Of a stretch of 64,000 nt of DNA, positions 28,271 through 43,537 are shown in pieces. A program made the position numbers and the translations under genes. Position 1 is the first letter of the stretch; every line of letters begins with the position of its first letter. The stretch is taken from positions 9,542,425-9,606,424 of the forward strand of contig NZ_JAQNDM010000002.1 in NCBI RefSeq assembly GCF_028368975.1, in the 5' to 3' direction. This DNA comes from Stigmatella ashevillena. Lineage in GTDB: Bacteria; Myxococcota; Myxococcia; Myxococcales; Myxococcaceae. The notes beneath the pieces were generated by a model that was given only the letters and a program-made list of their open reading frames with translations, ran no database searches and was not told the origin of the DNA.

Positions 28271-29623
28271 TCAGAGCCCGGCGTTGCTCACCCGGCGTTG
28301 CTCCACCGGCTGATCCCCGTTCTCGGCGCCCAGCTCGAACGCGTCATGCAGCAGGTTCAGTGCCTTGTCGGCTTGCCCATCTTGGACGAGGCAGCTGACG
28401 CGCAGCTCGCCCGCGGCGACCGACACCAACGCGATTCCCTCCTGGTTCAGCACCCGGCACGCCGTCGCGGACACTTGAGGATCCGAGCGGATGCCCAGCC
28501 CCACCAGGGAGACCTTGGCCAGGTTGTTCTCCAGGACGACTTGCTGCGCCTTCACCTCTTCGCCCAGTTGCTCCAGCCGCGTTTGCGCGCGGTGGACCTC
28601 GCTGGTCGGCATGGAAAAGGCCACGCTCGCTCGCGACGGCTCGTGCGGAAGCACCGAGTGCGTCACCATGTCCACGCTCATGTTCAGCTCGGCCAGCAGG
28701 CCCAGGACTTCTCCCAGAAGCCCGGAACGGTTCTCGGCCGCGACGAGCTGGACGCGCGTCTGGCGGCGATCCACGGCGAGCCCCGTCACCCGGTGAGACT
28801 CCAGGCCCCGGCTCTTGTCGATCACCCACGTACCCGGCTTTCCAGAGAACGTACTGCGAACATGCACAGGGACCTTGTATTTCATAGCGATCTCCACACT
28901 CCTGGATTGCAGAACCTTGGCTCCCAGCGCCGCCAGCTCCAGCATCTCCTCGAACCCGAGGGAGGGAATCTGGCGCGCGGAGGGGCAAATGTTGGGGTCC
29001 GCCGTGTAGACACCATCCACGTCGGTGTAGATCTCGCACTCGTCCGCGCCCAGCGCGGCGGCCAGCGCCACCGCCGTGGTGTCCGAGCCGCCACGCCCCA
29101 GCGTGGTGATGTGGTTCTGGGAATCCACTCCCTGGAAGCCCGCCACCACCGGGATGATGCGCGCGGCGAGGGCCTCGTGGAGGACCTCGTGCTCAATGCT
29201 GTGGATGCGTGCCTTGGTGAAGGCGTCATCCGTTACGATGCGGACCTGATGACCGAGGAACGAGCGTCCCTTGCCCCCGTGCCGGGAAATGGCCAGCGCC
29301 GTGAGCGCCGCGGACACTTGTTCGCCCGTGGCCGCGATGGCATCCAGCTCTCGCGTGTCCGGAACGGCCACCACCTCGTGCGCCAGCTTCAGCAGGCGGT
29401 TCGTCTCTCCACTCATCGCACTCACCACGAGCACGACGTCGTTGCCCGCCTGCTGGCTCTCCAGAGCCATCCGGGCCACCTCGCTGATGCGCTCTACGTT
29501 CGCCACGGACGTCCCGCCGAACTTCATGACGACCAGCGGACGGTGTGGGGAACCGGGGGAGGTTCTCCGGTTCGACTGGGGGGAGCTGTTGTAGACGAGA
29601 GCTTTCATAGAGAGAGGCTGCAT
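28271..29623 (-). CDS. lysC: Aspartate kinase of the 3,4-AHBA cluster
   Basis: About 450 aa (ATG at 29623; ATG at 29608 or an upstream codon possible). N-terminal amino-acid kinase domain with KFGGTSVANVERI and the aspartate-binding TTLGRGGSDTTAV; C-terminal tandem ACT domains (NRSGLLGEVLGLLAEL and VSLVGLGIRSDPQV). Phosphorylates L-aspartate, first step toward aspartate semialdehyde. That semialdehyde is a substrate of the aldolase encoded at 31337-32200, so this looks like a dedicated precursor-supply gene. A strong hairpin and promoter-like sequence lie just upstream; it probably heads the sub-operon AK, hydrolase, diiron oxidase, cupin. Confidence 0.95.
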   Translation of the reverse strand: MQPLSMKALVYNSSPQSNRRTSPGSPHRPLVVMKFGGTSVANVERISEVARMALESQQAGNDVVLVVSAMSGETNRLLKLAHEVVAVPDTRELDAIAATGEQVSAALTALAISRHGGKGRSFLGHQVRIVTDDAFTKARIHSIEHEVLHEALAARIIPVVAGFQGVDSQNHITTLGRGGSDTTAVALAAALGADECEIYTDVDGVYTADPNICPSARQIPSLGFEEMLELAALGAKVLQSRSVEIAMKYKVPVHVRSTFSGKPGTWVIDKSRGLESHRVTGLAVDRRQTRVQLVAAENRSGLLGEVLGLLAELNMSVDMVTHSVLPHEPSRASVAFSMPTSEVHRAQTRLEQLGEEVKAQQVVLENNLAKVSLVGLGIRSDPQVSATACRVLNQEGIALVSVAAGELRVSCLVQDGQADKALNLLHDAFELGAENGDQPVEQRRVSNAGL

Positions 29624-29635
29624 CTTTCTCTTGAG

Positions 29636-29665
29636 AGTATAACCGGAGAGTGCACTTACAAACAA
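29636..29665 (-). promoter_or_regulatory. Candidate promoter of the aspartate kinase gene
   Basis: On the minus strand: TTGTTT (29665-29660), an 18-base spacer and TATACT (29641-29636), close to a primary-sigma -35/-10 pair in an AT-rich stretch of GC-rich DNA. Transcription would begin only a few bases before the ATG at 29623, which leaves little leader unless the ATG at 29608 is used. Confidence 0.42.
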
Positions 29666-29797: not shown

Positions 29798-31291
29798 TTA
29801 GGCCCCGCCCGTGATGGCCTTGAGCAGCTCGCTCCGTTTGATTTTTCCGGAGGCGGTGCTGGGCAGGGACTCGACGAACACGATGCGGTCCGGCCTGAGC
29901 GCCCTCGGCCGCAGCGTCAGCTCCATCCGCTGGCGGACCTGGGCTTCCCACGCCTCCGTGCCCGAAGCCTGCACGTCCGGCTTGAGGACGATGAAGGCAC
30001 GCAGCCGTGTGAGGCCCTCGTCCGTCTTCAGCGCAATGGCCGCCGTAGAAGAGACGCCAGGCTGTGTCAGCAGGAAGTCCTCGAGCTCGTGAGGTGACAC
30101 CCAGCACCCACTGAGCTTGATCCGGTCTCCCTCGCGCGAGACGAAGTGGAAGCCCTCGCCGTCTGGCGTGAAGAGATCCCCGGTGGAAAGCCCCCCGCTC
30201 CGGGGCGCCAGGGCGCCAGAGGAGAGGTAGCCCAGCATCATGGCGGGTGAGTCAACGCTCAGGGCCACCACCTCCTGGGCGGACTCTCCCTCCACGGCAT
30301 GCGGCCGCACCTGGTATTGGAAGGCCTCCACGCGCTGCAGCACATTCTCGGAGAGGTGCGCGTCCTCGCTCAGGTAGGGGAGGAAGGTCTCCGTCGTCCC
30401 GATCGAGTTGAGCATGCGTGAGCCGCTGAAGGCCTCCCAGCGCTCGCGCACCAGTCCAGGCAGGTGCTCGCCCGCGGCGAAGCTCAGCCGCAGGAACTCC
30501 GGCTTCACGGGCGCTTCCGCAGCCCGGCGCCAGAGGATGTGGTACAATGTAGGAACGGCCAGGAGGGCCGTCACACGCTCGGCGTGCGCCACCTCGAGGA
30601 TGTCGAGGTGGCGGGTCCACTCGGGCACCATCACCGCGGTAGCGCCCACGCTCAGCGGGACGTGCAGTCCCTGCAGCCCGAACGAGAAGTGAGGGCTGGA
30701 GGCGGCCAGGACACGATCTTCCTCCCGGATTCCCCAGAGTGCGCGGGTGACGTGCCGCTCGAACCAGCCGAAGGCCCGGTGCGAGTGCACGCAGATCTTC
30801 GCGCCCCCGGTCGAGCCTGAGGTCATCAGCATCAGCGCCGGGCGGTCATCCCCCAGCAGCGCTTCGGCCGAGCCTTCCTGCGCGGGGGCGGGGGCCGGCT
30901 CCTTCAGCCAGTGAGAGATGTCCGGCAGGGGCTCGCCCGCGCTGGACGTGCGGTCCGACAGTACGCGCTCGGGGGCCACTTTTTCCCAGAGCGCTGGGTA
31001 GTACGCCTCGGCCTGCCGGGAGGGTGCCAGAAGCACGGGTCTTCCCGCGCGCATGGCCGCCAGCCACGCCACGGCGAACTCCAGGGTGGCGGAGCCTACC
31101 AGCGCCAGCGTGCAGCCCGGCGGGGTGGTCTGCTCGAGCCACCGCGCCATGGCGCACGTGGCATGGTAGAGCTGGCCGTAGGTCAGCTGTCGGCGCCCGA
31201 GGGTGCCGCGCTCGACGAGGGCCTCGCGGTCCGCGTTTCCGCGGGCCACGTGGCGCTCGACGAGAAGAGAGAAGCATCCTGCGGAGTCCAT
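29798..31291 (-). CDS. AMP-dependent aryl-CoA ligase-like enzyme
   Basis: 497 aa ANL-superfamily adenylating enzyme of the benzoate-CoA ligase type. P-loop TSGSTGGAKICVHSHR, A5 motif NSIGTTE, A7-like STGDLF, A8-like DRIKLSGCWVSPHELE and the C-terminal catalytic Lys in ASGKIKRSELL. It should activate a carboxylate, plausibly 3,4-AHBA, as acyl-AMP and then thioester. Cytosolic, no carrier domain fused. It directly follows the aldolase gene. Confidence 0.88.
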   Translation of the reverse strand: MDSAGCFSLLVERHVARGNADREALVERGTLGRRQLTYGQLYHATCAMARWLEQTTPPGCTLALVGSATLEFAVAWLAAMRAGRPVLLAPSRQAEAYYPALWEKVAPERVLSDRTSSAGEPLPDISHWLKEPAPAPAQEGSAEALLGDDRPALMLMTSGSTGGAKICVHSHRAFGWFERHVTRALWGIREEDRVLAASSPHFSFGLQGLHVPLSVGATAVMVPEWTRHLDILEVAHAERVTALLAVPTLYHILWRRAAEAPVKPEFLRLSFAAGEHLPGLVRERWEAFSGSRMLNSIGTTETFLPYLSEDAHLSENVLQRVEAFQYQVRPHAVEGESAQEVVALSVDSPAMMLGYLSSGALAPRSGGLSTGDLFTPDGEGFHFVSREGDRIKLSGCWVSPHELEDFLLTQPGVSSTAAIALKTDEGLTRLRAFIVLKPDVQASGTEAWEAQVRQRMELTLRPRALRPDRIVFVESLPSTASGKIKRSELLKAITGGA

Positions 31292-31336: not shown

Positions 31337-32200
31337 CTAGCTGACCGCGGCCAGAGCTGTCCGCTGCTCCCGCGGCCGCTCCGGTCCCCGGAGGAAGGGC
31401 CCGATGGAAGGCGGCGCCGACTCCACGTCCTCCAGCACCACGCGCTGCAGGCGCGTGAGGATCTCCGCCGTGTTCTCACGCTGGAACACGTTGCGCCCCA
31501 CACACAGTCCGGAGGCCCCGTACAGCGCTACGTCCCTGGCCAGCGCCAGCGTCGCTTCGTCCGAAGTGACCGCTCCGCCCGCGAAGAAGATGGCCGTGTG
31601 ATCCTGGAAGCCGTCCAGGAGGGCAGGCAGCTCCTCCAGCTTGGCGGGAGCCGCCAGCTTGAGGGCGTCCGTCCCCAGCTCCACGCACGCGCGCATCAGG
31701 TGCCGCAGCCGCGCCAGGCGCTGGTTGTCCTGGAGGTTCGTCACCTTGTCGTAGAGCATGGTCAGCACAGGCATGCCGTAGCCCTGGGCTTCATCCACGA
31801 GGGCGCCCAGCATCTTCCAGTTGTGCGCGTCGTTGGTCCCATCGAAGTTGATCTGCAGGGACACCGCGTCGGCGCCCAGGCGCACCGCCATCTCCACGGA
31901 CGTCAGCATCTCCTTGCGATCCGGAGCCGGCGCCGTGGCAACCGACGTCATGCCGTTGAGGTGGACCATGACGCCGATCCGCTGCAGCAGGCCACGGCTC
32001 CCCAGCCGCTCCACCATGCCTTTGTGCGCGATGACACCCGTGATGCCCGGATGGGGCATCCACTGCTCCATCTGCCGCATGCTGGTCAGACCCGGAATGG
32101 GTCCCAGCGTCAATCCGTGATCAATCGGGACGATGATGCCCCGATTGGAAGTGGCGTGAAGGAAACGCGACCAGCGAAGCTTCTTGGCGACTCCATCCAT
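31337..32200 (-). CDS. ADH synthase / GriI-like class I aldolase
   Basis: 287 aa archaeal-type class I aldolase (DeoC/LacD-like). Candidate catalytic residues are Asp27 (VPIDHG), Tyr150 (TMLYDK) and the Schiff-base Lys181 (DALKLAAP); the Tyr-Lys spacing of 31 matches what I recall for the M. jannaschii enzyme (Tyr153, Lys184). GriI of Streptomyces griseus condenses aspartate semialdehyde with dihydroxyacetone phosphate; its product is cyclised by GriH to 3,4-AHBA. The pairing here with a DHQ synthase II (42296-43537) and an aspartate kinase strongly supports that role over fructose-bisphosphate aldolase. ATG with GAGGAA upstream. Confidence 0.87.
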   Translation of the reverse strand: MDGVAKKLRWSRFLHATSNRGIIVPIDHGLTLGPIPGLTSMRQMEQWMPHPGITGVIAHKGMVERLGSRGLLQRIGVMVHLNGMTSVATAPAPDRKEMLTSVEMAVRLGADAVSLQINFDGTNDAHNWKMLGALVDEAQGYGMPVLTMLYDKVTNLQDNQRLARLRHLMRACVELGTDALKLAAPAKLEELPALLDGFQDHTAIFFAGGAVTSDEATLALARDVALYGASGLCVGRNVFQRENTAEILTRLQRVVLEDVESAPPSIGPFLRGPERPREQRTALAAVS

Positions 32201-32240: not shown

Positions 32241-33554
32241 CTACAAGTCCGACAGCGCCTCCCGGATGGTCTTCCGGGTGGATTTCAGCGCAGGAATGGC
32301 GCTGGCTCCGACAGCGACCACCGCCAGCACGACGAGTGACAGGGTATAAGCAGGGGCTGACCAGCTGATGGTGATGGGGACGGCATTGCTCGACCCAGGA
32401 GGCACCCAGCTGAGTCCCGCCATGCGGACGGACAACGTCACGACCGCGCTCGCCAGCAGGCCCATGGCGCCAGCCACCAGCGCGAGCAACAAGCTCTCAA
32501 TCCAGCACAGCGACAGCACGAACTCCTTGCTGAAACCCATGCTGCGCAGCGTGCCGAACTCGCGGATGCGCCCCATGAAGTTCACGTAGCTGGTGTTGAG
32601 CAGGCTCATGAAGGACACCACCAGGGTGATGGCCAGCACGAACCCGAAGAAGCCCATGAGCAACCCGTAGACCTGGTGATAGAAGGTCGCGCGGTCGGAC
32701 CAGAAGAAGATCCGCACCTTGAGGCCCTTGGCCTCGAACGCCTTCATCAGGTCATCGCGCGCGTCTTCCATGGAGACGCCCTCGGCCAGCCGCACGTGAT
32801 ACTTGCTGACGGACTGCGTGTTCATCAGCTCCTGCGCGTCCTTCATGGGCAGGACGACGAGGCGCTGGTTGATCTCCTTGATGCCCCAGTCCATCACGCC
32901 CGTGGCCGGGAAGCTGACGGCGTTGATCTGGCCGTCGTTGGTGACGACACTGAGCTGGAAGTCAGGCCGGTCACACTCGAAGAGCCGCTCCTCCGGCTTC
33001 TCACCCGGCTTCGTAGGGCTGAAGCCCACATCCGGCACCTTGCAGCTCAGCGTACGGGCCAGCTCCTGCCCGACAATCATTGAGGGGGTGCTCGCGGTCG
33101 CCCACAGCGGCTTTCCCGCCACCACGTCGTACTCGTACTCCGCGCCCTTGATGGCGCGGATCTTCTCCACGTCCTGGCCAATGCCCGTGAAGATGGCATT
33201 GGTGCGTCCATCGGAGACGAGGCCGGAGATTTCCAGCAGGCGGGCATAGGCCATCACGCCCGGGGTCGCCCCCAGCACGCTGTCGATCGTGCGTTGGGCC
33301 TCCTCGGTCAGCAGGACCTTGGCCGCGTCCTCTTGTGCGGCTCCCTCCGCCACGGGGCTCTCGATCATCAACTGGCCGCGAGCGCCCCAGCGGGTGAAGG
33401 CCTCGCTGGTGAGGTCCAGCGTAGCATCCACGTACCCGTACAGCACGTTGCAGGCGAGGATGCCCACGGCCATTACCAGCAGCGTGCTGAGCGACTTGCG
33501 CCAGTAACGCCGCAGATTCTGAGCGGCCATCCGGAAGACGAGCGAGGTGGTCAT
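32241..33554 (-). CDS. FtsX-type ABC permease (LolC/LolE-like)
   Basis: 437 aa from the ATG at 33554, which aligns with the N-terminus of the paralogue encoded upstream; a TTG at 33575 overlapping the previous stop is an alternative. One N-terminal helix (LLVMAVGILACNVLYGYV), a ~230-residue periplasmic domain (with DVGFSPTKPGEKPE), then three C-terminal helices around LAITLVVSFMSLLNTSYV: the MacB/LolE permease topology. Should pair with the fused permease and the ATPase encoded upstream, moving lipids or lipoproteins out of the inner membrane. Confidence 0.88.
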   Translation of the reverse strand: MTTSLVFRMAAQNLRRYWRKSLSTLLVMAVGILACNVLYGYVDATLDLTSEAFTRWGARGQLMIESPVAEGAAQEDAAKVLLTEEAQRTIDSVLGATPGVMAYARLLEISGLVSDGRTNAIFTGIGQDVEKIRAIKGAEYEYDVVAGKPLWATASTPSMIVGQELARTLSCKVPDVGFSPTKPGEKPEERLFECDRPDFQLSVVTNDGQINAVSFPATGVMDWGIKEINQRLVVLPMKDAQELMNTQSVSKYHVRLAEGVSMEDARDDLMKAFEAKGLKVRIFFWSDRATFYHQVYGLLMGFFGFVLAITLVVSFMSLLNTSYVNFMGRIREFGTLRSMGFSKEFVLSLCWIESLLLALVAGAMGLLASAVVTLSVRMAGLSWVPPGSSNAVPITISWSAPAYTLSLVVLAVVAVGASAIPALKSTRKTIREALSDL

Positions 33555-33571
33555 GGGTGATATGCGCGGGC

Positions 33572-35638
33572 TCAACGCCCCAGATTGGCGAGGTTGAAGA
33601 GGTTGTCCGGGTGGGTGGCGGACTTCAGGTTGCTGTAGACCAACGTGCTGTTCTGGTTGGCGTACTTGCTGTCGATGATCTTCAGTTCCGAGATGAAGGG
33701 CGTGCCCGGCCCAGGCGTCTTGTTGCCGTACTTCATCAGCGAGTACTTGAAGGGCGTCCCCGAGGTGGTGAGGTACTCCGCCTTGAGCGCCAGGTGGTTC
33801 TCCTTGTCCAGGTAGAAGATGACCTGGTCGTAGGTGACGTCCTTGCGCTTGGCCACCAAGCGGACCTTGTGCACGGCCCGGCCGTCCACCGTGTCCTCGC
33901 CCAGCAGCGTCGGGTCGTAGTTGTCCGCGAACTGCGCGGAGGCGATGTCACCGTTGGCCGCCTGGCCACTCAGGCGCTGGCGCGGGCTGATGCTGATGGG
34001 CTTGCGCAGCCCGGGCTTCATGAACCACATGGAGCGCGCCTGGATGAGGATCTGCTCGCCCTTGCTGCTGACGGGCGTGAGCGTGTAGGCGAGCGCCTTG
34101 TCGCCCTTCACATCTACCCGGTAGGACGTCTCCGTGTGCCCCGAGGGCTCCTCCGAGGCGATGATCAGGCTCCACGTGTATGCGCCATAGCCCCCACGCG
34201 CCAGATCCGAGGCGCGGATCCACTCCCTCAGTTCATCGGCGGAAGGGGGCCCCGCGGGCTGCGCCGGCTGCACCGCGGGAGCTGCGGGAGCCGCCGCAGG
34301 GGGTGGCGCGGCGTGAGCAGGTGAGGCACCCATCCCCACCAGGGTGGCGGTCACGAACAAGGCAAAGGACAGCACGCGCGTCTGGAACGCATCCACGATT
34401 TGTCCTTCCATCCGCTTCTTGGCGGACCGATACGAAATCAACGCAGCCATGAGACCTCCTGCGATCAGAACAGCAACGAACCCGGTGGCTCCCAGCCGGA
34501 TGCTCACCGGTACTGGAATGGAGAGACGCGGCAGGGTCGTCGTGAGGTTCGTTTGCGTCAGCGCCAACGCGACGATGACGGTGAAGACGATCCCTCCCAC
34601 CGCGCCAAGAGAAGCGAGGATGAGCGCCTCGCGCGCGAACAGGCCTCCCAGCCGGCCCTTCCCGAAACCGATGGCCCGGAGCGTGCCAAGCTCTCGCACC
34701 CGCTCCAGCACACTGATGTTGATGGTGTTCTGGACGGTCAGCACGCACACCAGCAGCACGATGACGCCCGTGAAGGCAAACACCACCCCCATGAACCCCA
34801 TCACGCTCTCGTACAGCTTGCCAATGGCCGGGTGCTGCCAGGTGGTGACCTCGTAGCCCGGCAGCTCCGCGTCCAGCTTCTGCTGCAACTGGGCCGACAC
34901 GCTGGGGGTCAGCTCGCGGTCGGTCAGCACCACCACCATCCGCGATGCGTCCTCGGTGCGGTAGAGATCCTGGAGCAGCTTCAAGGGCACCTTGATGCTC
35001 TTGTTCTCCGTCTCTTCGATGGAGGTGGAGAACTCGCCCACCACGTCCGCGTCCGAGGCATTCAGACGCCGGTCGAACCCGATGCCCGCCAACTGCACGT
35101 AAGGGGCCTCCCCTTCGTTGGCCGGCTTGAGGTCCAACACCTGCTTGAGCTGCTTCGTCAACCAGAGCGAGGGCTTGCCCTCTTCGAGCGCTTCGCCCGA
35201 GGCGAAGTCATCCATGGAAGTGGCCACTGCCGCGCCACCCGCCTGACGGATCTTCCGGTCGTCTTCGGGCACCACGCCCGAGGCCAGGAAGACGGCGGTG
35301 CGGTCGTTGTTCTGGATGATGCCCACCCCCTCCATCTGCGGGGTGACCAGCGTCACGCCCTGCAGCCCCGAAGCGAGCTCGCGGATGCGCTGCTGCGCCT
35401 TGGGCTCAATGGAGAACTTCTCGGGCTCCGTCGACAGGTGCGTCAGCGCGTCCTTCTTGTAGACCTGAACGTGGCCGTTGCCCTGCCGGTAGATGACCAC
35501 CGCCGACAACGTGCGCTCGATGAACTGGACGTACCCCAGGAAGAGGAGCACGCCCAGCGCGCCGAAGCCCACGGAGATCATCGTCACAGCGGACCGCCGG
35601 GAGTCACGCCAGATATTGCGGAATGCGAGCGCCCACAT
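33572..35638 (-). CDS. FtsX-type permease fused to a LolA-like periplasmic domain
   Basis: 688 aa. Residues ~1-410 are an FtsX/LolE-type permease (first helix ~20-40, periplasmic domain, three later helices, IVFTVIVALALTQTN). Instead of ending there, it continues through a signal-peptide-like segment (residues ~422-441, LFVTATLVGMGASPAHA) into a ~220-residue domain resembling outer-membrane lipoprotein-sorting (LolA/LolB/RseB-like) proteins: SYRVDVKGDKALAYTLTP, DEDTV-like GEDTVDGRAVHKVRLV and VIFYLDKENHLALKAEYL. The fusion would tether a carrier to its own permease; alternatively a GTG near 34375 or a protease site separates them. Just 4 bases downstream of the ATPase gene. Confidence 0.83.
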   Translation of the reverse strand: MWALAFRNIWRDSRRSAVTMISVGFGALGVLLFLGYVQFIERTLSAVVIYRQGNGHVQVYKKDALTHLSTEPEKFSIEPKAQQRIRELASGLQGVTLVTPQMEGVGIIQNNDRTAVFLASGVVPEDDRKIRQAGGAAVATSMDDFASGEALEEGKPSLWLTKQLKQVLDLKPANEGEAPYVQLAGIGFDRRLNASDADVVGEFSTSIEETENKSIKVPLKLLQDLYRTEDASRMVVVLTDRELTPSVSAQLQQKLDAELPGYEVTTWQHPAIGKLYESVMGFMGVVFAFTGVIVLLVCVLTVQNTINISVLERVRELGTLRAIGFGKGRLGGLFAREALILASLGAVGGIVFTVIVALALTQTNLTTTLPRLSIPVPVSIRLGATGFVAVLIAGGLMAALISYRSAKKRMEGQIVDAFQTRVLSFALFVTATLVGMGASPAHAAPPPAAAPAAPAVQPAQPAGPPSADELREWIRASDLARGGYGAYTWSLIIASEEPSGHTETSYRVDVKGDKALAYTLTPVSSKGEQILIQARSMWFMKPGLRKPISISPRQRLSGQAANGDIASAQFADNYDPTLLGEDTVDGRAVHKVRLVAKRKDVTYDQVIFYLDKENHLALKAEYLTTSGTPFKYSLMKYGNKTPGPGTPFISELKIIDSKYANQNSTLVYSNLKSATHPDNLFNLANLGR

Positions 35639-35642
35639 GGCT

Positions 35643-36365
35643 TTAGCCCAAGGCCTTCTTCAGGGGGGCTGCTGCCGTGTCTTCCTGCAGCTTGCCGTCC
35701 CGGATGCGGATGATGCGATCCACCTTGCCGAGCAGGGACGCGTCATGCGTGGAGAAAACGAACGTCACGCCGCTCTCTTGGTTGAGCTTGCGCATGAGCT
35801 CGATGATGGCCTCCGAGTTGCTGGAGTCCAGGTTGGCCGTCGGCTCATCGGCGAGCACCAGGTTGGGCTTCGTCACCAACGCCCGGGCGATGCTCACGCG
35901 CTGCCGCTGGCCGCCCGACAGCTGGTCTGGCAGGTGATCCGTGTACTGCTCCAGGCCCACCTGGCGCAGCGCATGCTCCGCCTGCTCGCGCATCTGCTGT
36001 GCCTTCAGTCCGTGCAGTTGCAGCGGCAGCATCACGTTCTCCACGGCCTTGAGCACGGGGATCAAGTTGAAGCTCTGGAAGATGAAGCCAATGGCCCTGG
36101 ACCGCAGCTTGTCCAAAGCCTTCTCATCCAGGTCCGACGTGCGCGTGCCACCGATCTTCACCTCGCCGCTGGTCGGTACGTCCAGACAGCCGATGAGGTT
36201 GAGCAGGGTGCTCTTGCCGCTGCCGCTGGGGCCGGTGATGGCCACGAAATCGTTCTTGCGGATCCCCAAGGAGATCTCCTTGAGGGCATCCACCTCGGTG
36301 GCGCCAAGCTTGAAGCGCTTGGAAACCGAGCTCAGCTCGACGACGTTGGTCTGCTCCGGGTTCAT
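35643..36365 (-). CDS. ABC transporter ATPase (LolD/MacB-like)
   Basis: 240 aa from the ATG at 36365, which has AAGGA five bases upstream; the ATG two codons earlier is too close to it. Walker A GPSGSGKST, Q-loop FQSFNLIPVL, signature LSGGQRQRVSIARAL, Walker B LVLADEPTANLD and H-loop STHDASL are all intact. Sequence is of the LolD/MacB group, which drives FtsX-type permeases. Energises the two permeases encoded next to it. Confidence 0.94.
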   Translation of the reverse strand: MNPEQTNVVELSSVSKRFKLGATEVDALKEISLGIRKNDFVAITGPSGSGKSTLLNLIGCLDVPTSGEVKIGGTRTSDLDEKALDKLRSRAIGFIFQSFNLIPVLKAVENVMLPLQLHGLKAQQMREQAEHALRQVGLEQYTDHLPDQLSGGQRQRVSIARALVTKPNLVLADEPTANLDSSNSEAIIELMRKLNQESGVTFVFSTHDASLLGKVDRIIRIRDGKLQEDTAAAPLKKALG

Positions 36366-36380
36366 CGTCATCCTTTCAAT

Positions 36381-37928
36381 TCAGTGCGTAAAGCTCAGGC
36401 CCACTCGGAGGAAGCGCTCGAAGGGAAAGCGCTGCACGGAGGCCTCTGGGCCAAAGTTGAGCGCCACGGAGACGAACCCCTTAAAACTATCATAGGAGAA
36501 GGAGAGTTCGCCTGCGGCGATGAGAGAGTCGCTTGGGTTCGTATACATCAAGCTCGTTGATAAAGTCACCCGCTTGCCAGGAGGCAGATCCGGGAACCGC
36601 CCGTGCACCAGCACGTAGCGCCTGTCGAGCAAGGGGTGGATGCCGACCCCTGCCGACGTGCCAGCAAGCAGCAGCGGATACAGTGTGGGAAGTTGTTCCT
36701 GGGCCGAACCGCTCAGCGCGAATTCGTTTACACCCACCTCGGCGCCAATCTCTCCGCCGGAGCTGAGGCCGTAGCGCACATTGATCAGGCCGTCATAGCT
36801 CCACGCATCCTCGTGCAAGAACAGGCCCGGCGGACCGAAGTTCAGGTCCCGCTTGCGCGAGTAGCCCTTGGACGTGGAGAACTCGGCGCCTGCCGTCCAA
36901 GCATCCGACACCAGCATCTCGAAATACAGACCGCCATGAGGCTGGAAACGCTCGCCTGCTCCTGCCACTGCGCCCAGGGTGAAAGGAAATTCGCCCTGCG
37001 ACTGATACTCCACGCGCGAGGAGGCGAAGTAGGACCGAAGCGGCTCTTCGGCGCCCCAATCCGAGTCATCCGCCCGGGCGGCCGTCACGAAGAGTGTCAT
37101 CTCCGGGAGCAGTTCCACGTTCAGTGCCACCATCCTCCGGCGAATGGGCTCGCGCTGGGCGGTGGTGAAGAGTGTTTCGGGGAAGATGCGGTTGGTCGGG
37201 CTGTAGAAGATACCAGGGCCCCAGCCCTGCACCTGACTGCCGACAGAGACCACCGTCCGGGGAATGGCACTCACCGAGAGGTACAGCTCGTGGAAGTAGA
37301 AGTCAGGATCCACGTTGGGCTCAAACTGCCAGGTGAGCCGGGGCCGGAAGACGAGCGAGCTGCCGTTGCAGACCTCGAAGTTACAAATGAGTGTCTCGTT
37401 GGAGAACAGCCACACGCTTCCGAGGTTCTGCGTGGCCTTCAGCCCCAGGATGGGGGTCTCGAAGCGGTCGTAGCGCAGCTCCAAGGTGTTGGAGTGCCGC
37501 AGCTCGAAGTGATCCAGAAAGCCAGGGGTGTCCTCGGCCGGTGGACTCTCGGCCACGGCCGTGTCCGGATCCTGCCCCGCCGGGGGCATGGCTTCGGCTT
37601 CAGGCGTGGCTTCGGCAGGGAGCATGGCAGCGTCAGAAGAAGGGTCTTCGTCGGAAGGCGTGACGGCGGCAACAAGGGGAGCGACGTCAGAAGACGAGGC
37701 AGCGGATAAAAGCGTGACAGGGGGCCACGCAAGGGCCTCAGAAAGTCGCCTGAGCGTCCTCGTCCCACCGGCCTCCAGACCCTGGGAGTGTGCCGTCTTC
37801 CGGCTCCACTCCAGGGTTCCAGGTGGCTCCATCTCTCCCGCAAGTGCCTCTTGGAGGGGGGCGCATGCGACAAGACACGCCACCAGTCCAGAAGTCCATG
37901 CCCCCCATTTCGACAACCCATGCTTCAT
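36381..37928 (-). CDS. Predicted outer-membrane beta-barrel protein
   Basis: 515 aa from the ATG at 37928, which shares its A with the upstream TAA (TAATG). The signal peptide ends near ALAG, or at a lipobox LVAC. A Pro/Glu/Ala-rich linker (residues ~75-150) precedes alternating-hydrophobicity strands rich in Tyr, Phe and Gly (YVLVHGRFPDLPPGKRVTLS) and ends in an aromatic-containing strand RVGLSFTH, as barrels do. No TonB box. Placed between a ligase and an ABC ATPase, it is the likely outer-membrane exit or acceptor for the cluster's product. Confidence 0.7.
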   Translation of the reverse strand: MKHGLSKWGAWTSGLVACLVACAPLQEALAGEMEPPGTLEWSRKTAHSQGLEAGGTRTLRRLSEALAWPPVTLLSAASSSDVAPLVAAVTPSDEDPSSDAAMLPAEATPEAEAMPPAGQDPDTAVAESPPAEDTPGFLDHFELRHSNTLELRYDRFETPILGLKATQNLGSVWLFSNETLICNFEVCNGSSLVFRPRLTWQFEPNVDPDFYFHELYLSVSAIPRTVVSVGSQVQGWGPGIFYSPTNRIFPETLFTTAQREPIRRRMVALNVELLPEMTLFVTAARADDSDWGAEEPLRSYFASSRVEYQSQGEFPFTLGAVAGAGERFQPHGGLYFEMLVSDAWTAGAEFSTSKGYSRKRDLNFGPPGLFLHEDAWSYDGLINVRYGLSSGGEIGAEVGVNEFALSGSAQEQLPTLYPLLLAGTSAGVGIHPLLDRRYVLVHGRFPDLPPGKRVTLSTSLMYTNPSDSLIAAGELSFSYDSFKGFVSVALNFGPEASVQRFPFERFLRVGLSFTH

Positions 37929-39697
37929 TAGGATCCCGCGCGGAAAACCCGCTTCAGTGTCTTTCCAGTCACGCCGATGGGGAACTCGCTCCATCGGGTG
38001 ACCTTGAGCTCGGCCAGGCGGTCCTTCTCCGGCAGTTTCGCGTTCAGTTCAAGCCTGAGCCGCTCGGCGTCCATCGAATCTGCCCCGTTCTTGAGGGCCA
38101 CCGCCGCCGCGGGCACCACCTTGCCGTCCGCCTGGGTCAGCGCGAAGACCGTGGTGTCGAAAACCGCTGGGTGCTTGAGCACTTCCTCTTCCATGAGGAG
38201 GGTATAACTGACCCCCTGCTGATGGCTGATGACATCCACCTCGCGGTCCAGATGGACGAATTCTCCATCGGGCTGGCGGATGACGATGTCCCCGGTGAAC
38301 CACCAGCCGTTCTGCGACGAGGACAGCAGCTTGTCGTGGGCATTCCAATAGCCGCCGAACATACAGGGCCCCTTGATGGCGAAGCGCCCCGGCTGGCCAT
38401 CCGGCACCTGTTGCCAGTTCTCGTCCACCACCCGGACCTGGGGCCCGAAGAAGGGAACCGGACGGCCTACGCGCCGCCCGAACTGCTTCGTCCACGGCCC
38501 GGCGATGCGCAGCAGCGCGGCGATGCCCACCTCGCTCGAGCCCAGCCCGTCCACGAACAGGGAGCCCTGCATCGGGATGCCCAGCTCTCGCAGGAAGGAG
38601 CCTTTCTGGATGAGCGGGCGCTGGTGGACCTCGTGGCTGGCGTCCGCCGTGGTGCCCCAGATGCGCATGGCGCTCAGGTCGTACTTGGTCAGATCCTCCA
38701 CCACCAACTGGGCGTAGGTGATGGGGAAGCCGAAGTAGATGGTGACGCGCCGCCGGGAGAGCGTCTCCAGCACGCGCTCGGACTTGAACTCCGAGGACAT
38801 GATGACCCGTGCCCCGAGCGCCAGCGTGGTGAAGATGTAGAGGTTGGTGACCTGGTGGTTGAAGGGAACGCAGAAGTACGCCAGGTCCCTGCGCCCCACG
38901 AAGTTGAACATCAGCGTCGCCTTGAGCGACTGCATCAGCCCGCGCGCCAGCAGGATGACGCCCTTGGGGAATCCCGTCGTCCCGGAGGTGTGGACGATGT
39001 AGAGCGGATCATCCAGCCCCCGCTCGACAGCCTCCGCCGGCTCCACCTGCTGTGTGAGCATCCACTGCAGGCTGATCGCCCGGGGGCCTGCGGGCAGTTG
39101 GGCCAGTTCGGTGATGGCCCCATCCTTCCCGTCCGCTCCCGCGTCGGAGACGATGATGAACTCGACGCCCTGCAGCTTCACCTCATCCTTCACCAGCCGT
39201 TCCAGGGTGGCCACGTCCGTGATGATCACCTTGGCCCCGAGGTAGGCCACGTACTGGCCGAACGACGCGGAGGCCAGCTTTCCGTTGACGGGCGTCGCGA
39301 TGCCACCGATCCGGATGGCGGCGGAGGCGAACAGGAAGAGGTCGAACGCGTTCTCCTTGTAGATGATGACGCGGTCGCCCATCTGAGGGTTGGCGAACTT
39401 CTTCAGCGCACCCGCGATCAGCGCCACCGTCTGCTGTACCCGGACCGCGCTCCACTCCTGATCATTCTGCACCCGGACCTTGCCGGCGGGCACCTTCCAC
39501 TTCAGCGGGGTCTCCACCTCGATGAGCGTCGTGTCGCCGTAGCGGGCGGCGGCCTGATCAACGACTTTGTGGATGTTGGCCAGGCCTCCGAGCAGCAGCC
39601 CCAGCCGCTCCGGGAAGCCCAGCTTGACGAAGCAGTACGCTACCCACCCCAGCACCAACGCCAGCACCACGCCCACCACGATGAGAACCAGCTGCAT
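37928..39697 (-). CDS. Membrane-anchored acyl-AMP/CoA ligase
   Basis: 589 aa. An N-terminal hydrophobic anchor (LVLIVVGVVLALVLGWVAY, residues ~3-22) precedes an ANL-superfamily domain: IVHTSGTTGFPKGVI P-loop, FVDGLGSSEVG A5-like, WWFTGDIV A7-like and the C-terminal catalytic Lys in IGVTGKTLKRVF. Matches long-chain acyl-CoA/AMP ligases rather than aryl ones. Likely activates a fatty acid at the membrane for the acyltransferase encoded upstream. ATG with GGGAG upstream. Confidence 0.87.
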   Translation of the reverse strand: MQLVLIVVGVVLALVLGWVAYCFVKLGFPERLGLLLGGLANIHKVVDQAAARYGDTTLIEVETPLKWKVPAGKVRVQNDQEWSAVRVQQTVALIAGALKKFANPQMGDRVIIYKENAFDLFLFASAAIRIGGIATPVNGKLASASFGQYVAYLGAKVIITDVATLERLVKDEVKLQGVEFIIVSDAGADGKDGAITELAQLPAGPRAISLQWMLTQQVEPAEAVERGLDDPLYIVHTSGTTGFPKGVILLARGLMQSLKATLMFNFVGRRDLAYFCVPFNHQVTNLYIFTTLALGARVIMSSEFKSERVLETLSRRRVTIYFGFPITYAQLVVEDLTKYDLSAMRIWGTTADASHEVHQRPLIQKGSFLRELGIPMQGSLFVDGLGSSEVGIAALLRIAGPWTKQFGRRVGRPVPFFGPQVRVVDENWQQVPDGQPGRFAIKGPCMFGGYWNAHDKLLSSSQNGWWFTGDIVIRQPDGEFVHLDREVDVISHQQGVSYTLLMEEEVLKHPAVFDTTVFALTQADGKVVPAAAVALKNGADSMDAERLRLELNAKLPEKDRLAELKVTRWSEFPIGVTGKTLKRVFRAGS

Positions 39698-39744: not shown

Positions 39745-41175
39745 TCAGGCTGCGACACTCTCGGCGGAGATGGAGAACTCCTGGAACATGTCTCGCAACG
39801 CCCGCTTCACGCCTTCGATGATTTGCGCCCGGAAATCCGTGAACGCATCCGGGTAGTATACCGCGTTGAGCTCCAGCCGTTGGTGAAGCTTGGGGGTATA
39901 GAGAATGAAGTCCATGGGGGGAAGTGCACACCCAAACCCGATGTAGTCCTCCACGGGCAAGTCACTCCGGCCGCACGTCCGGAAGTCCTCGTGGATGACG
40001 CCAGGGTTGGAGTAGGCCACGCTCGTCTGCTGAAACCCGTCCATCAGCGTCAGCCCCAGCCCATGAAGCACGGGGTTGCGCAGGAAGGTGCACATCAGCT
40101 TCAGTTTCTCGATCTCCAGGTGGACCCGGCCGCCCACCTTCACCTCGGAGATCTGCTGGGCGATGTCACTCAGCAGCTCTCGCGAGCTGGCTCCCAGCCG
40201 GTAGCTCAGCCGGCAGGGCAGCATGAAGTTGCGGTAATGCTTGCTGAAGGTGGGCCCCGCCAGGTAGCGCATGCTGATGGGGACAATCACCTTCACCCGC
40301 TGGTCCTTGCCCGGCTTCAGCGGCAGCTCTGGCTCCATGGCCCGTACCAGCGCTGCGGTGAAGAGCGTATTGAGGGTATGTCCCGAGGATTGGGACAGCG
40401 CGTGGATGTTGGCTTGCATCTCCTCGGAGAGCACCTCCCGGTGGAAGTCCGCCTCGCGCGCCTTCTGTCGGCGCACGGCCTTCGAGGCCGAACGCAGCCC
40501 CAAGGTTTTCTCGAGAACCTCCCGCTTGGCATCCATCGCCACGCTCCACAGGCCGAGCCCCGTGCGATCCTTGGGCGGAGGCAGCACCTGGGTCAGCCCT
40601 CGAAAGGAATGGTCGCGCGGTGCGTCGGCCACCCTTCGCTCGGCCCCGCCGTGGAGCGCACCGTAGGTCTGCAAGAGTGTCTCCAGAAGCATGGAGTCGC
40701 TCTTGGCATCCGCGGTGGCGTGCGAGGCCGTCATCAGGAAACACGAACGGTCTGGTTCCGCGGGGCTCTGGATGAGCCAGAAGCGCACCGGGGGCGTCTG
40801 CAGCCAGTCCACCGGGTGGTCTTTGCTCAGGTTGGTGAGAAAGCGCCGGAAAGGGGTGTGCTCAAAGTGGAGGGGCCCCTCGAACTTCACCTCTTGGAAC
40901 TGAACGTCCTCGGGCTTCCACGCATTGAGCAGGATGGTGCCTTTGCGCACCTCGGGCTTGCTCAAGAGGATGGGGAATTCCGGGACGGTCTGGTGGATGG
41001 CCCGCTCCATGAGGCCAAACTTCAGCGGGACCTTGGTCACGATGATCTGCATCGCGTTGCCGTTGACGCCCTGCCGAGCCGTATGAATGAACAGCTCCGC
41101 CAGGGGATCCAGCTCCTCGCGATCCCCCAGCGGTGCCAGGGCGGTGGGCCCTTGTGCCGGATCAGGCCGCGGCAT
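39745..41175 (-). CDS. Condensation-domain/WS-DGAT-like acyltransferase
   Basis: 476 aa from the ATG at 41175 (GAGGAA eight bases upstream); a longer frame adds an Arg/Pro-rich tail that overlaps the upstream gene. Two CoA-dependent-acyltransferase half-domains. The HHxxxDG-type motif is SHATADA, keeping the catalytic second His (152) and Asp156 but with Ser for the first His and Ala for Gly. A latch region follows (FSKHYRNFMLPCRL). Stand-alone, with no carrier domain. Could join an activated acyl group to an amine or hydroxyl such as the 3-amino group of AHBA. Its 5' end overlaps the reductase gene by 14 bases. Confidence 0.78.
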   Translation of the reverse strand: MPRPDPAQGPTALAPLGDREELDPLAELFIHTARQGVNGNAMQIIVTKVPLKFGLMERAIHQTVPEFPILLSKPEVRKGTILLNAWKPEDVQFQEVKFEGPLHFEHTPFRRFLTNLSKDHPVDWLQTPPVRFWLIQSPAEPDRSCFLMTASHATADAKSDSMLLETLLQTYGALHGGAERRVADAPRDHSFRGLTQVLPPPKDRTGLGLWSVAMDAKREVLEKTLGLRSASKAVRRQKAREADFHREVLSEEMQANIHALSQSSGHTLNTLFTAALVRAMEPELPLKPGKDQRVKVIVPISMRYLAGPTFSKHYRNFMLPCRLSYRLGASSRELLSDIAQQISEVKVGGRVHLEIEKLKLMCTFLRNPVLHGLGLTLMDGFQQTSVAYSNPGVIHEDFRTCGRSDLPVEDYIGFGCALPPMDFILYTPKLHQRLELNAVYYPDAFTDFRAQIIEGVKRALRDMFQEFSISAESVAA

Positions 41176-42265
41176 TGGAGCGTTCCTCGGCTTTGGCCTC
41201 GGCAACCTTGTGTGCCACGTAGTGCAGCACGCTCCGGCCAATGATGTCCTGGGTCATGGTGACCGGGCCGTACTCCTCGCCGAGCACCTGCTGGAGCCGT
41301 TCCGAGTTGAAGGTCCACCGGCCATTGGCGAACTGCTTGTTGCGCTCGAACACGGCGTTGATCTGCGCGTCCGTCTCGTTCACCGGAGCGCCGAACGACA
41401 CCTGCACGCCGATCATGGTCTGCAGCTGCTCCACCACATCGGTCATGGTGACGCACTCATCCCCGATGCAGTTGAAGATTTCAGCGGGCTGGCGCTCTGG
41501 AGACTCGGACTTCATCAGGGCCATGGCACGGCGGACCACCGTGTCGATGCAGACCAGGTTCGGCTTGGTATCCGCGTCGAGATCCAGCTTCAGGTGCGCG
41601 GTGCGCGCCTGCTTGCCATAGAGCACGGCCGCTGCGAGCAGGAACATGCCGAAGCTTGCCCCCGAGGACCAGCCGGTCTGCTCGTGGCCGATGACGACGC
41701 TCGGCCGGAAGATGGCCAGGGGCAGGCCCCGTTCCTTCTGGCTCTGGATGAGCGCTACCTCGGCCATCCACTTGCTGAGCTGGTACGAGTTGATGAGCTT
41801 GGGAGTGAAGTTGATCTCCTCCCGCGCCTCATTGTTGCCGAAGCCCACCGTGTAGGCGGTGGACACATGGTAGAAGCGCCTGCAGTCGTGTGCGTGTTGC
41901 GAGGCGAGCTTGTAGAGCATCGACGAGGCGATGACGTTCTGGTCCACCGCTTCGATGACCTTCTTCAGCGAGTAGGTCATCTCGGCCGCGACGTTCCACA
42001 CGGCGGTCACGCCCTCGAAGACGTGAGGCTGGAGCGTCTGGTCCAGGGCGCGGAAATCCACTTCCACGATGGACAGGCGGCTCCACTGCATCGGGCTCAG
42101 CGTGAGGCCGAAACCGGTTGCCGCTTTCTCCACGGCGGCCCGTGTTCGCTGCCCGCCCGGGTCCGTCCGAGACAGCGCTACCACCCGGGTGTCCTCCGCC
42201 AGGAGATTGGCGGCCAGCGCGCTACCCACGAAGCCTGTGGCTCCAGTGATCAGAATCTTGTTCAT
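41162..42265 (-). CDS. Thioester-reductase-like extended SDR
   Basis: 367 aa. NAD(P)-binding GATGFVGS (residues 8-15), catalytic Ser/Thr in HVSTAYT and intact Tyr161-x3-Lys165 (YQLSK). Extended SDR of the NAD_binding_4 type that includes thioester reductases and fatty-acyl-CoA reductases, which turn an acyl thioester into an aldehyde or alcohol. Might reduce the aryl or acyl thioester made by one of the ligases. ATG with GGAGTGAG upstream; end overlaps the acyltransferase start. Confidence 0.82.
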   Translation of the reverse strand: MNKILITGATGFVGSALAANLLAEDTRVVALSRTDPGGQRTRAAVEKAATGFGLTLSPMQWSRLSIVEVDFRALDQTLQPHVFEGVTAVWNVAAEMTYSLKKVIEAVDQNVIASSMLYKLASQHAHDCRRFYHVSTAYTVGFGNNEAREEINFTPKLINSYQLSKWMAEVALIQSQKERGLPLAIFRPSVVIGHEQTGWSSGASFGMFLLAAAVLYGKQARTAHLKLDLDADTKPNLVCIDTVVRRAMALMKSESPERQPAEIFNCIGDECVTMTDVVEQLQTMIGVQVSFGAPVNETDAQINAVFERNKQFANGRWTFNSERLQQVLGEEYGPVTMTQDIIGRSVLHYVAHKVAEAKAEERSNAAA

Positions 42266-42295: not shown

Positions 42296-43537
42296 TCAGG
42301 TTTCGAGGATGTGCTCGTCGACCTTGATGCCCACGTGACGGCCTGGCACGGCGACGTTTCCCAACACCTTGTCGCCCGGGCGCAGCTCAGTGATGTTCAG
42401 AGGCTTGGCATCGTCCGAGAAGATCCGCACGTGCCAGTCATCCTGCATGATGACGTTGATGCGCTCGCCGCTCGCGAAGTCGACCTCGATGAGGCGCAGC
42501 GGGCGGACTTCGGTCTTCATGCGGCCCACGGAGCCACGCCGGGTAGCGCCGGAGCGGTCCACGAGCATCACTGGCGAACCGGAGCGCAGCTCGCTCATGT
42601 AGTCCGTGCGGTTGTCGAAGTTGTAGACGTAGCTGTGCACCGCGCCCGCGTTCACCCGGAAGGGCCGCAGCTCCATGTAAGGCAGGTAGAACACCTCGGG
42701 GCAGCACAGCACTCCGCCCTGCGAGGTGGAGCCGACCAGGATGCCTTCGGTGGGAGAGAACAGCGTGGTGGTGTCGATGCAGCTGCGGTAACCCATCCCG
42801 ATGGGCGCGGTGCGGCGCACCGAACCCACCTGGAGCTTCAGGGTCGTCTTGGCGATGTTCCCCAGCCGCCGCAAGAACTCGTCCAGCGCCCCATGGTTCC
42901 GAGGGGAGAACATGACCCCGTCGGCGCCGACTTCCATGACGCCCAGCGTCACGATGGCGTCATCCACGTCCTCAGGAGAGCTGATCTCCTTGACGAGAAT
43001 GGTGTGGGTGGCCTGCAGGGAGGCGATCACCAGCTCCAGGGGGATGTTCGTCGGATCCCGGAAGCGGATCACCAGAAATGCGTGGTTGCTGCCCTCTTGG
43101 ATGGACGCGTGGAGGCTGGGGCCGTCATCGACGTAGGCCCGGTAGCAGGTGCGGAAGCCTTGCTCCAGGGCCCGCTTGAGCAGGCCTACGTGGGGGCTCG
43201 CCACGACGTACTCTTGGCGGGCATCGCCGGAGAGCAGCTGCAGCTCCTCTTCCTTCTCGACACTGAGCACCTTCACCACGCGCGCGGGCAGGGCGGGCGC
43301 CAGGGCGGCGAAGTTATTCGGGTAGAGGACCACGCCCGTGTACGACTGGTTGAGAACGCGCGGGAGCAGACCGTCGTAGGCATTCAGGTCCGAAATGCCC
43401 GACGTGTCGTACCAAGCAACGAGGGAATTCGACTCTTTGATGCGGTTGCGATCTCCATCGACGCGCTCGAGCTTGATGCGCTCGCGCTTCTTCATGGAGA
43501 CCTCGTCAATGACAACGCCAGCGGGAGACTTGCTCAT
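42296..43537 (-). CDS. 3-dehydroquinate synthase II / GriH-like enzyme
   Basis: 413 aa. Diagnostic DHQ synthase II signatures: ELRPFRVNAGAVHSYVYN, preceded by PIGMGYRSCIDTTTLFSPTE and GILVGSTSQGG, and SGISDLNAYDGLLPRV near the N-terminus. The archaeal enzyme makes 3-dehydroquinate from the ADH synthase product. The bacterial homologue GriH cyclises the GriI product to 3-amino-4-hydroxybenzoate. In a bacterium that would normally use AroB, finding this with a GriI-type aldolase and an aspartate kinase indicates 3,4-AHBA formation. It is the first gene of the minus-strand cluster; ATG with AAGGGGTG upstream. Confidence 0.92.
   Translation of the reverse strand: MSKSPAGVVIDEVSMKKRERIKLERVDGDRNRIKESNSLVAWYDTSGISDLNAYDGLLPRVLNQSYTGVVLYPNNFAALAPALPARVVKVLSVEKEEELQLLSGDARQEYVVASPHVGLLKRALEQGFRTCYRAYVDDGPSLHASIQEGSNHAFLVIRFRDPTNIPLELVIASLQATHTILVKEISSPEDVDDAIVTLGVMEVGADGVMFSPRNHGALDEFLRRLGNIAKTTLKLQVGSVRRTAPIGMGYRSCIDTTTLFSPTEGILVGSTSQGGVLCCPEVFYLPYMELRPFRVNAGAVHSYVYNFDNRTDYMSELRSGSPVMLVDRSGATRRGSVGRMKTEVRPLRLIEVDFASGERINVIMQDDWHVRIFSDDAKPLNITELRPGDKVLGNVAVPGRHVGIKVDEHILET

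Follow-up and report, generated by a model that had tools for sequence, protein, structure and literature searches.

The window analysed here, 64,000 nucleotides of Stigmatella ashevillena contig NZ_JAQNDM010000002.1 from a 10.95-Mb genome in two contigs (G000), carries at positions 32241-37928 of the minus strand an exporter block that encodes an outer-membrane barrel, an ATP-binding cassette (ABC) ATPase, an FtsX-type permease fused to a LolA-like carrier (FtsX1-LolA) and a second FtsX-type permease (FtsX2), contiguous within an operon-like run of 14 genes. We consider this exporter to be dedicated to the product of the surrounding cluster, with a probability of roughly 0.6, and the evidence suggests, but does not prove, that this product is hydrophobic and is delivered to or through the outer membrane. 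A preliminary description of this DNA had placed an ATPase, two FtsX permeases, a LolA-like domain and a barrel side by side amid biosynthetic genes, and all of them were located on the minus strand by Pfam, profile hidden Markov models (HMMs) and AlphaFold2 models. The LolA-like domain is present as described, but it has no gene of its own and forms the C-terminal third of the permease 1 gene. The proposal of a dedicated Lol-like exporter is well supported by its embedding in the operon, its conservation in a second species and its kinship with modules that partly adjoin biosynthetic genes.

The exporter block and its fused carrier

The run comprises 14 minus-strand genes (43537 to 25799), and the gaps between them lie in the range of -80 to +132 bp. 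They encode a dehydroquinate synthase II (DHQS-II) homologue, an NAD_binding_4 reductase, a PapA-like acyltransferase, an AMP ligase with a membrane segment, the barrel, the ABC ATPase and FtsX1-LolA, followed by FtsX2, an ADTH-type aldolase, a benzoate-CoA-ligase-like enzyme, an aspartokinase, an alpha/beta hydrolase, a haem-oxygenase-like enzyme and a cupin. The exporter block is flanked by the AMP ligase on one side and the aldolase on the other, with enzymes of the 3-amino-4-hydroxybenzoate (3,4-AHBA) type on both sides. The stop codon of the AMP ligase overlaps the start of the barrel (TAATG, -1 bp), the gaps after the barrel inside the block are +9, +4 and -4 bp (the last with the TTG start of FtsX2), and 40 bp separate FtsX2 from the aldolase.

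The ATPase (35643..36371, minus strand, 242 amino acids) is of the LolD/MacB type (PF00005, ABC_tran, E 1.4e-34); its best NCBIfam model is LolD TIGR02211, which it matches at 239.9 bits, below the cut-off of 307.75. FtsX1-LolA (33572..35638, minus strand) has 688 amino acids, with PF02687 at residues 289-408 (E 2.6e-14) and PF17131 at residues 513-688. Its permease part (residues 1-412; 34403..35638, minus strand) has four hydrophobic segments by hydropathy, and the AlphaFold2 model, with a predicted local distance difference test (pLDDT) score mostly of 80-95 and lower around residues 130-180, has the type VII or MacB-LolCDE fold. The best structural matches of this model were two LolCDE chains, 9xro_E (Z 27.8, root-mean-square deviation (rmsd) 5.6, 366 aligned) and 7mdx_A (Z 24.7, rmsd 4.0, 365 aligned); MacB 5nik_J followed at Z 19.6 (rmsd 7.1, 372 aligned). 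FtsX2 (32241..33575, minus strand) matches PF02687 (E 7.4e-17) and MacB_PCD (E 1.3e-7), and may start at TTG 33575 or at ATG 33554, as in the congener G037.

The LolA-like domain (residues 474-688; 33572..34219, minus strand) follows a Pro/Ala-rich linker and matches PF17131 (E 1.3e-29) and PDB 3buu, a LolA-superfamily protein (E 5.3e-25). At E 0.001 it matches PF17131 and MucB_RseB, not PF03548. Between permease and linker, residues 406-443 (34310..34423, minus strand) comprise a basic stretch, a hydrophobic segment and then A-H-A, and the hydropathy of this fifth hydrophobic segment peaks at residues 422-440. The junction segment looks like the retained signal peptide of a formerly separate carrier, which would serve as a fifth membrane segment or be cleaved. 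Permeases of the MacB/LolCDE fold end in the cytoplasm, so a fifth segment would bring the LolA domain into the periplasm. The alignment behind the fusion model consisted of permease sequences and two sequences with the fusion; since these two alone covered the LolA region, that part of the model is not reliable (mostly pLDDT <50).

The fusion is a single reading frame both in the window and in G037, where the junction sequence is kept and the linker is shorter; the same open fusion in a second genome rules out a chance or false fusion caused by sequencing error. Across 195 genomes of the phylum (E 1e-50), residues 1-688 were matched without a stop only by G000 and G037, and the same result was obtained among 96 genomes of the family. 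One of 2,551 open reading frames (ORFs) outside the window, from partly overlapping stretches, matched both LolA and FtsX HMMs, and this ORF is the G037 gene. G133 was considered as a further fusion and rejected: it has an open frame of 734, yet its permease and LolA matches lie in different frames (frames assigned by hand). We found no report of an FtsX-LolA fusion in the literature searched, which covered few subscription journals.

In G037 the cluster has the same gene order, with about 92-98% identity per protein and 90% for the barrel. Between the two species, Ka/Ks is lowest for the ATPase (0.06) and highest for the barrel (0.17); FtsX2 has a value of 0.09, the permease part of the fusion 0.10 and its LolA part 0.13, and the junction gave 0.16 and the linker 0.07 (few sites). 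Every exporter part is under purifying selection, and the synteny, the identity of about 90-98% and the Ka/Ks values of 0.06-0.17 show that these ORFs are not due to chance. At E 1e-20 the PapA-like enzyme was found in two of the 195 phylum genomes, the same two that carry the exporter. This conservation bears on the possibility that the block is a general envelope-lipid transporter that is merely located in the operon. Related modules adjoin many kinds of genes, and PF17131 loci at large in the window's family lack enrichment of ketosynthase (KS) or AMP-ligase genes, as such a role would allow. However, the exporter lies in the middle of a run with overlapping genes and is conserved together with the whole cluster, and the other five genomes of the genus hold nothing of comparable similarity (best about 32%), which makes a general envelope role highly improbable.

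The barrel (36381..37928, minus strand) has 515 amino acids from its likely ATG at 37928, which is where the preliminary description had ended the block, and probably carries a signal peptide; a longer ORF begins at 37994. It has no Pfam match and no NCBIfam match. An HMM of barrels from related modules matches it at E 4.3e-15 (50 bits), and the 14 matches of that HMM at E<1 among 306 targets were all ORFs or ORF pieces adjoining such systems. The AlphaFold2 model (mean pLDDT 67) has 16 long strands at residues 190-514. Taken together, the HMM and the model bear out the predicted barrel, at about 16 strands. Foldseek matched the model to MOMP and OccD2 (E about 1e-7), and VIA-align gave OccK8 (Z 22.1, rmsd 3.8, 321 aligned) tied with AlgE (Z 21.9, rmsd 3.7, 315 aligned). 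The structural matches listed are thus porin-like (OprD/Occ, AlgE, MOMP), although an Omp85 type could be missing from such lists. The barrel is also the one of the 14 operon proteins that matched a simple lipobox pattern: its N-terminus has two LVAC motifs, which are MVAC and LVTC in G037, and both barrels keep ALA-G, which suits signal peptidase I. Upstream of the run, orf157 (43877-44350) has a lipoprotein-like start (LLAC) that the simple pattern missed.

The porin-like fold raises the question of whether the system is a self-protective efflux pump that uses the barrel to rid the membrane of a toxic hydrophobic product and release it to the medium, instead of placing it in the outer membrane. 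We regard this as unlikely. Tripartite efflux systems are not known to include a LolA carrier, and Pfam found no MacA-type adaptor or TolC-type domain in the 14 genes (the rest of the genome was not searched). The nearest barrel folds (OprD/Occ, AlgE, MOMP) are channels and the MacB-type relatives are known efflux pumps (PMC5985334), but a shared fold shows no function. The same barrel fold would also fit uptake, perhaps of a product such as an iron-binding aminophenol, since OprD/Occ-type barrels serve as uptake channels for specific substrates. However, type VII ABC systems are not known to act as importers. In addition, Pfam found no TonB receptor or substrate-binding protein in the 14 genes, and MacB and its homologues act on the periplasmic side (PMC5985334), so that we give import next to no weight.

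Relation to the housekeeping Lol system and to related modules

The preliminary description would have lost its ground had the permeases grouped with the housekeeping LolCE proteins in a genome with no other Lol system, and neither is the case. All 96 family genomes have a PF03548 LolA, which is present as a single copy in G000 (C2:8537017), and a LolF-like permease of the same genome lies at C2:2031535-2032839 beside an ABC ATPase. This permease scores higher with TIGR02212 than any other protein of the genome (two pieces, of 220.5 and 87.5 bits), whereas the window permeases score 52 and 38 bits; since the LolF-like permease is itself below the cut-off of 362, the cut-off alone is a weak criterion here. 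In a tree of 97 permeases, E. coli LolC and LolE and the LolF-like permease of G000 formed one clade (support of 100 by the Shimodaira-Hasegawa-like approximate likelihood ratio test, SH-aLRT), and the window permeases fell among the module permeases described below (group support 97); this is a quick tree with the careful search unfinished and with several long branches. The PF17131 carrier was found in 79 of 96 family genomes with variable copy number. The tree, the carrier family (PF17131, not PF03548) and the separate Lol system rule out a housekeeping LolCDE.

A side branch of lipoprotein sorting was also considered, in which the exporter would deliver a single lipoprotein or a small number of them to the outer membrane and would have no link with the small molecule. 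The permease fold is nearest to LolCDE, PF17131 proteins are named for lipoprotein sorting, the two LVAC motifs make the barrel a candidate for lipidation and orf157 starts like a lipoprotein; the authors of work on the Borrelia system BBJ23-29 also propose lipoproteins as possible cargo (PMC13078400). However, no operon protein besides the barrel matched the simple pattern, and the ALA-G site is kept in both barrels. Moreover, orf157 lies 339 bp before the run and further off in G037, with other ORFs in between. Finally, the housekeeping LolA is present throughout the family and G000 has a LolF-like permease, with the LolC/E/F clade separate. This role is therefore improbable.

To place the exporter we used a permease-profile scan of genome contigs, from which the best 79 of at least 511 loci, from several phyla, were kept. 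Of these 79 loci, 74 have a permease, 67 an ABC ATPase, 61 a LolA-like protein and 52 a barrel, and some loci end at contig ends. HMMs built from such modules without the window match all parts of the window system: the ATPase at 352 bits, FtsX1 at 339, FtsX2 at 300, the LolA domain at 223 (E 6e-68) and the barrel at 50; the LolF-like permease of G000 reaches 94 bits with the FtsX model. Judged from these profile matches, the window exporter belongs to a widespread ABC-FtsX-LolA_like-barrel module family.

Most module loci carry one permease, and the window represents a two-permease subtype. In L121 and L167 the order is ABC-FtsX1-LolA-FtsX2-barrel, whereas in the window the barrel precedes the ATPase. 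G183 has the order ABC-FtsX1-LolA-FtsX2, after which its contig ends. In G133 the LolA match is flanked by the two permeases, whereas no LolA separates the two permeases of L170. In the tree, FtsX1 of the window falls together with permease 1 of L121, L167, L170 and L097 (SH-aLRT 96), and FtsX2 with permease 2 of L121, L167 and L170 (SH-aLRT 98). On gene order and tree, the carrier gene, which usually lies between the two permease genes, is here fused to permease 1 at the same position. As a separate observation, a 755-amino-acid module permease ORF in Duganella (L118:8972-11239) has about 340 extra N-terminal residues that do not match the panel ATPase.

A part of the related modules adjoins biosynthetic genes. 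Six of eight near-family modules (L062, L065-L069; from ORF starts, with Pfam on L068) lie beside KS genes of a FabA/KS/FabG set; the other two lie beside a polyketide synthase (PKS) with pyridoxal-phosphate (PLP) domains (L063) and beside a PP-binding/thioesterase protein (L064). Modules beside long PKS genes were found in Pseudomonas protegens (by Pfam) and in Paraburkholderia and Massilia (by blast). The L167 module adjoins a set of fatty-acid hydroxylase, KS-III and haem-oxygenase genes, and homologues of the PapA-like enzyme lie beside the same exporter type in Zoogloea and Azoarcus (L144, E 1.7e-35; L138, E 2.8e-34). G000 itself has a second PF17131 system (L023, ABC-FtsX-FtsX-LolA_like, G000:C2:1401500-1421000), which adjoins acyltransferase, luciferase-like and thioesterase genes of the trans-acyltransferase polyketide type. 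For a third PF17131 system of this genome, the few neighbours scanned held no acyltransferase, luciferase-like or thioesterase domain.

Biosynthetic context and proposed function

The first gene of the run encodes the DHQS-II homologue of the 3,4-AHBA synthase type (42296..43537, minus strand as for all genes of the run; PF01959, E 8e-86), which matches the NCBIfam BagC/FevH 3,4-AHBA synthase model at 250.7 bits, below the cut-off of 750. It is followed by the acyl-CoA-reductase-like enzyme (41162..42265; PF07993, E 1.4e-31) and the PapA/condensation-like acyltransferase (39745..41241; PF16911, E 1.7e-4, 21.5 bits, below the cut-off of 30). The AMP-dependent ligase before the barrel (37928..39697; PF00501, E 2.3e-47) has an N-terminal hydrophobic segment at residues 3-21. 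Its best curated model is the diazotase AvaA6 at 196 bits, far below the cut-off of 975, a weak hint that N-N chemistry on an aminophenol may be involved. Beyond the exporter lie the DeoC/ADTH-synthase-like aldolase of the GriI/BagB type (31337..32200; PF01791, E 5.5e-24; NCBIfam ADTH synthase subfamily 193 bits, cut-off 241), the benzoate-CoA-ligase-like AMP-dependent ligase (29798..31291; PF00501, E 6.6e-38; TIGR02262 174 bits, below the cut-off of 375) and an aspartokinase for precursor supply (28271..29665; PF00696, E 1e-52). The tail of the run, identified by Pfam, consists of the alpha/beta hydrolase (27216-28181), the haem-oxygenase-like iron enzyme HO2 (26351-27154) and the cupin (25799-26329), with gaps of 89, 61 and 21 bp. 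By domains, both the aldolase and the DHQS-II homologue of the 3,4-AHBA pathway (GriI/GriH, BagB/BagC) are present, and the run seems to make an aminohydroxybenzoic-acid product of the 3,4-AHBA type; because the curated models were matched below their cut-offs, we infer this identity.

The family genomes contain 22 DHQS loci in 13 of 96 genomes. Apart from the window and its G037 copy, 20 DHQS loci remain, of which 19 were covered (stretches of up to 20 kb, two shorter); none of these 19 had an ATPase, permease, LolA or barrel match, and 5 of them share HO2- and AMP2-like genes. G000 itself has two further 3,4-AHBA-type DHQS-II clusters, at C2:2649855 (L173) and C2:8030386 (L172), with no such exporter in the fetched stretches. 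A sister cluster is found in two genomes of the same genus (G036:C27, L209:1263-19288; G038:C15, L269). It has relatives of the cupin (72% identity in G036), the haem-oxygenase-like enzyme (61%), the AMP ligase (38%) and the condensation-like protein (21%, E 3e-9), together with PaaA-like and PLP enzymes, and no DHQS match in the fetched stretches. Where the window has the ABC exporter, the sister clusters hold an MMPL transporter, a PF17131 LolA and a DUF1302-type barrel. In our reading, the exporter would travel with the acyltransferase and the reductase and not with AHBA as such.

We then compared the module loci with controls for KS-like genes within fetched stretches of up to 10 kb on each side. 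KS-like genes were present in 27 of the 79 best scan loci and in 7 of the 8 near-family loci, which include orthologous loci and are not eight independent cases; one locus (L099, the same as L069, G066:C12) was left in both counts. Among the controls, none of the 20 housekeeping LolA loci and one of the 20 arbitrary family loci had such a gene (27 of 79 versus 1 of 40, Fisher p 5e-5), a comparison in which the controls come from the window's family, the 79 loci come from several phyla and the loci are related, not independent. Besides this imbalance, several other observations weigh against a dedicated exporter. Among PF17131 loci at large in the family, KS was found in 0 of 20 and AMP ligase in 1 of 20, and AMP-ligase matches at E 1e-15 were found in 0 of the 79 best module loci (L148 and L156 had AMP-like ORFs by blastp at 1e-5). 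A histidine kinase is near 25 and a LytTR regulator near 23 of the 79 loci, many neighbours of which are unknown. G036 (C6) and G038 (C2) each have an L024-type PF17131 gene at a distance of about 11 kb from a DHQS gene, a little beyond the fetched stretches. The LolA part of the fusion is not modelled well, the barrel model is only moderately confident, and no flippase was identified. KS enrichment around PF17131 in general is not supported, and the 27 of 79 in module loci against 0 of 20 in PF17131 loci at large indicate that KS adjacency belongs to the nearer module. The genes for a histidine kinase and a LytTR regulator near many modules, as in Gallionella-like and Deltaproteobacterial records, suggest that the module may also serve a regulated envelope role.

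If the exporter is dedicated to the cluster, the enzymes would produce an aromatic, lipid-like conjugate, which would partition into the inner membrane. Since MacB and its homologues are thought to act on the periplasmic side without carrying cargo through the inner membrane (PMC5985334), an earlier flip would be needed to bring the product to the outer, periplasmic leaflet. The ATPase dimer with FtsX1 and FtsX2 would then use ATP to lift the product from the leaflet and pass it to the LolA-like domain, which would be tethered by the fifth segment and the Pro/Ala linker or freed by signal peptidase, and which would hand the cargo to the barrel for insertion into the outer membrane or release. 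If the permease pair is a heterodimer, the fusion would give one LolA per complex. We tentatively propose a covalent pump-carrier, for which the odds are still somewhat against us: one subunit of a heterodimeric type VII ABC transporter may bear its own LolA on a fifth membrane segment derived from the signal peptide of the carrier, or release it from a polyprotein, and may feed a dedicated barrel with a small lipophilic aromatic product; more generally, type VII ABC and MMPL/RND (resistance-nodulation-division) motors may be interchangeable on a LolA-plus-barrel route, as the sister clusters suggest.

Comparison with known systems and significance

Like LolCDE and LolDF with LolA, the window system has the type VII ABC fold, a separate ATPase, a permease pair and a LolA-like carrier, and the LolCDE permeases are its best structural matches. 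It differs in that its permeases lie outside the LolC/E/F clade, its carrier is PF17131 and fused to permease 1, and the system includes a barrel and sits in a biosynthetic operon. MacAB-TolC shares the type VII permease fold (5nik_J), but in the window the ATPase is a separate gene, there is a LolA carrier and the operon has no MacA or TolC domain.

The preliminary description had also drawn a comparison with aryl-polyene and flexirubin clusters. The genes for aryl polyenes, xanthomonadin and flexirubin (ApeL-ApeM-ApeN; lolA2/lolB2 of Flavobacterium) likewise form aromatic-lipid clusters with their own LolA-like carriers, which have been proposed to act in outer-membrane delivery (PMC8253772, PMC11885536, PMC3949708), and LolA2/LolB2 occur in flexirubin loci (PMC11885536). 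The E. coli aryl-polyene transporter is RND-type, and the ApeLMN proposal comes from the same work (PMC8253772). In the window, the motor is a type VII ABC system, a barrel replaces the LolB-like protein and the other enzymes differ; Pfam found no MMPL or DUF3261 match in the 14 operon genes, so that an ApeLMN-type partner set was not found. The comparison thus stands as a fair analogy, given the six of eight near-family modules beside FabA/KS/FabG-type KS genes, but not as a shared machine.

The Borrelia system BBJ23-BBJ29 consists of a MacB-like ABC pair, a LolA-like protein and an outer-membrane barrel that are encoded together, as in the window; its proposed role is to carry a non-polar ligand to the outer membrane (PMC13078400). 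It has an Omp85-type barrel and a homodimeric permease, whereas the window has two permeases, a fused LolA and a porin-like barrel, and the passages covered describe no biosynthetic genes. In the closoxazole clusters of Clostridium cavendishii and Pyxidicoccus fallax, an aldolase and a DHQS-II-like enzyme make 3,4-AHBA, and AMP ligases follow (PMC12118335). The window shares the ADTH-type aldolase, the DHQS-II-like enzyme and the AMP ligases, but its 14 genes have no Pfam amidohydrolase match. The main text of the closoxazole paper (PMC12118335) contains none of the words transporter, export, efflux and membrane, and the literature searched, again with few subscription journals, held no report of an ABC-FtsX-LolA_like-barrel module in a biosynthetic cluster.

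How lipophilic secondary metabolites are transported from the inner to the outer membrane of Gram-negative bacteria is a largely unresolved question. The window offers a compact, genetically separable, ATP-driven counterpart to the RND-type route, with the carrier tied to the pump. Several lineages have the related module next to genes of the type I and type II polyketide, fatty-acid and nonribosomal-peptide-synthetase-like kinds, so it becomes testable whether the LolA domain binds the product of its cluster and whether the tether is cleaved.

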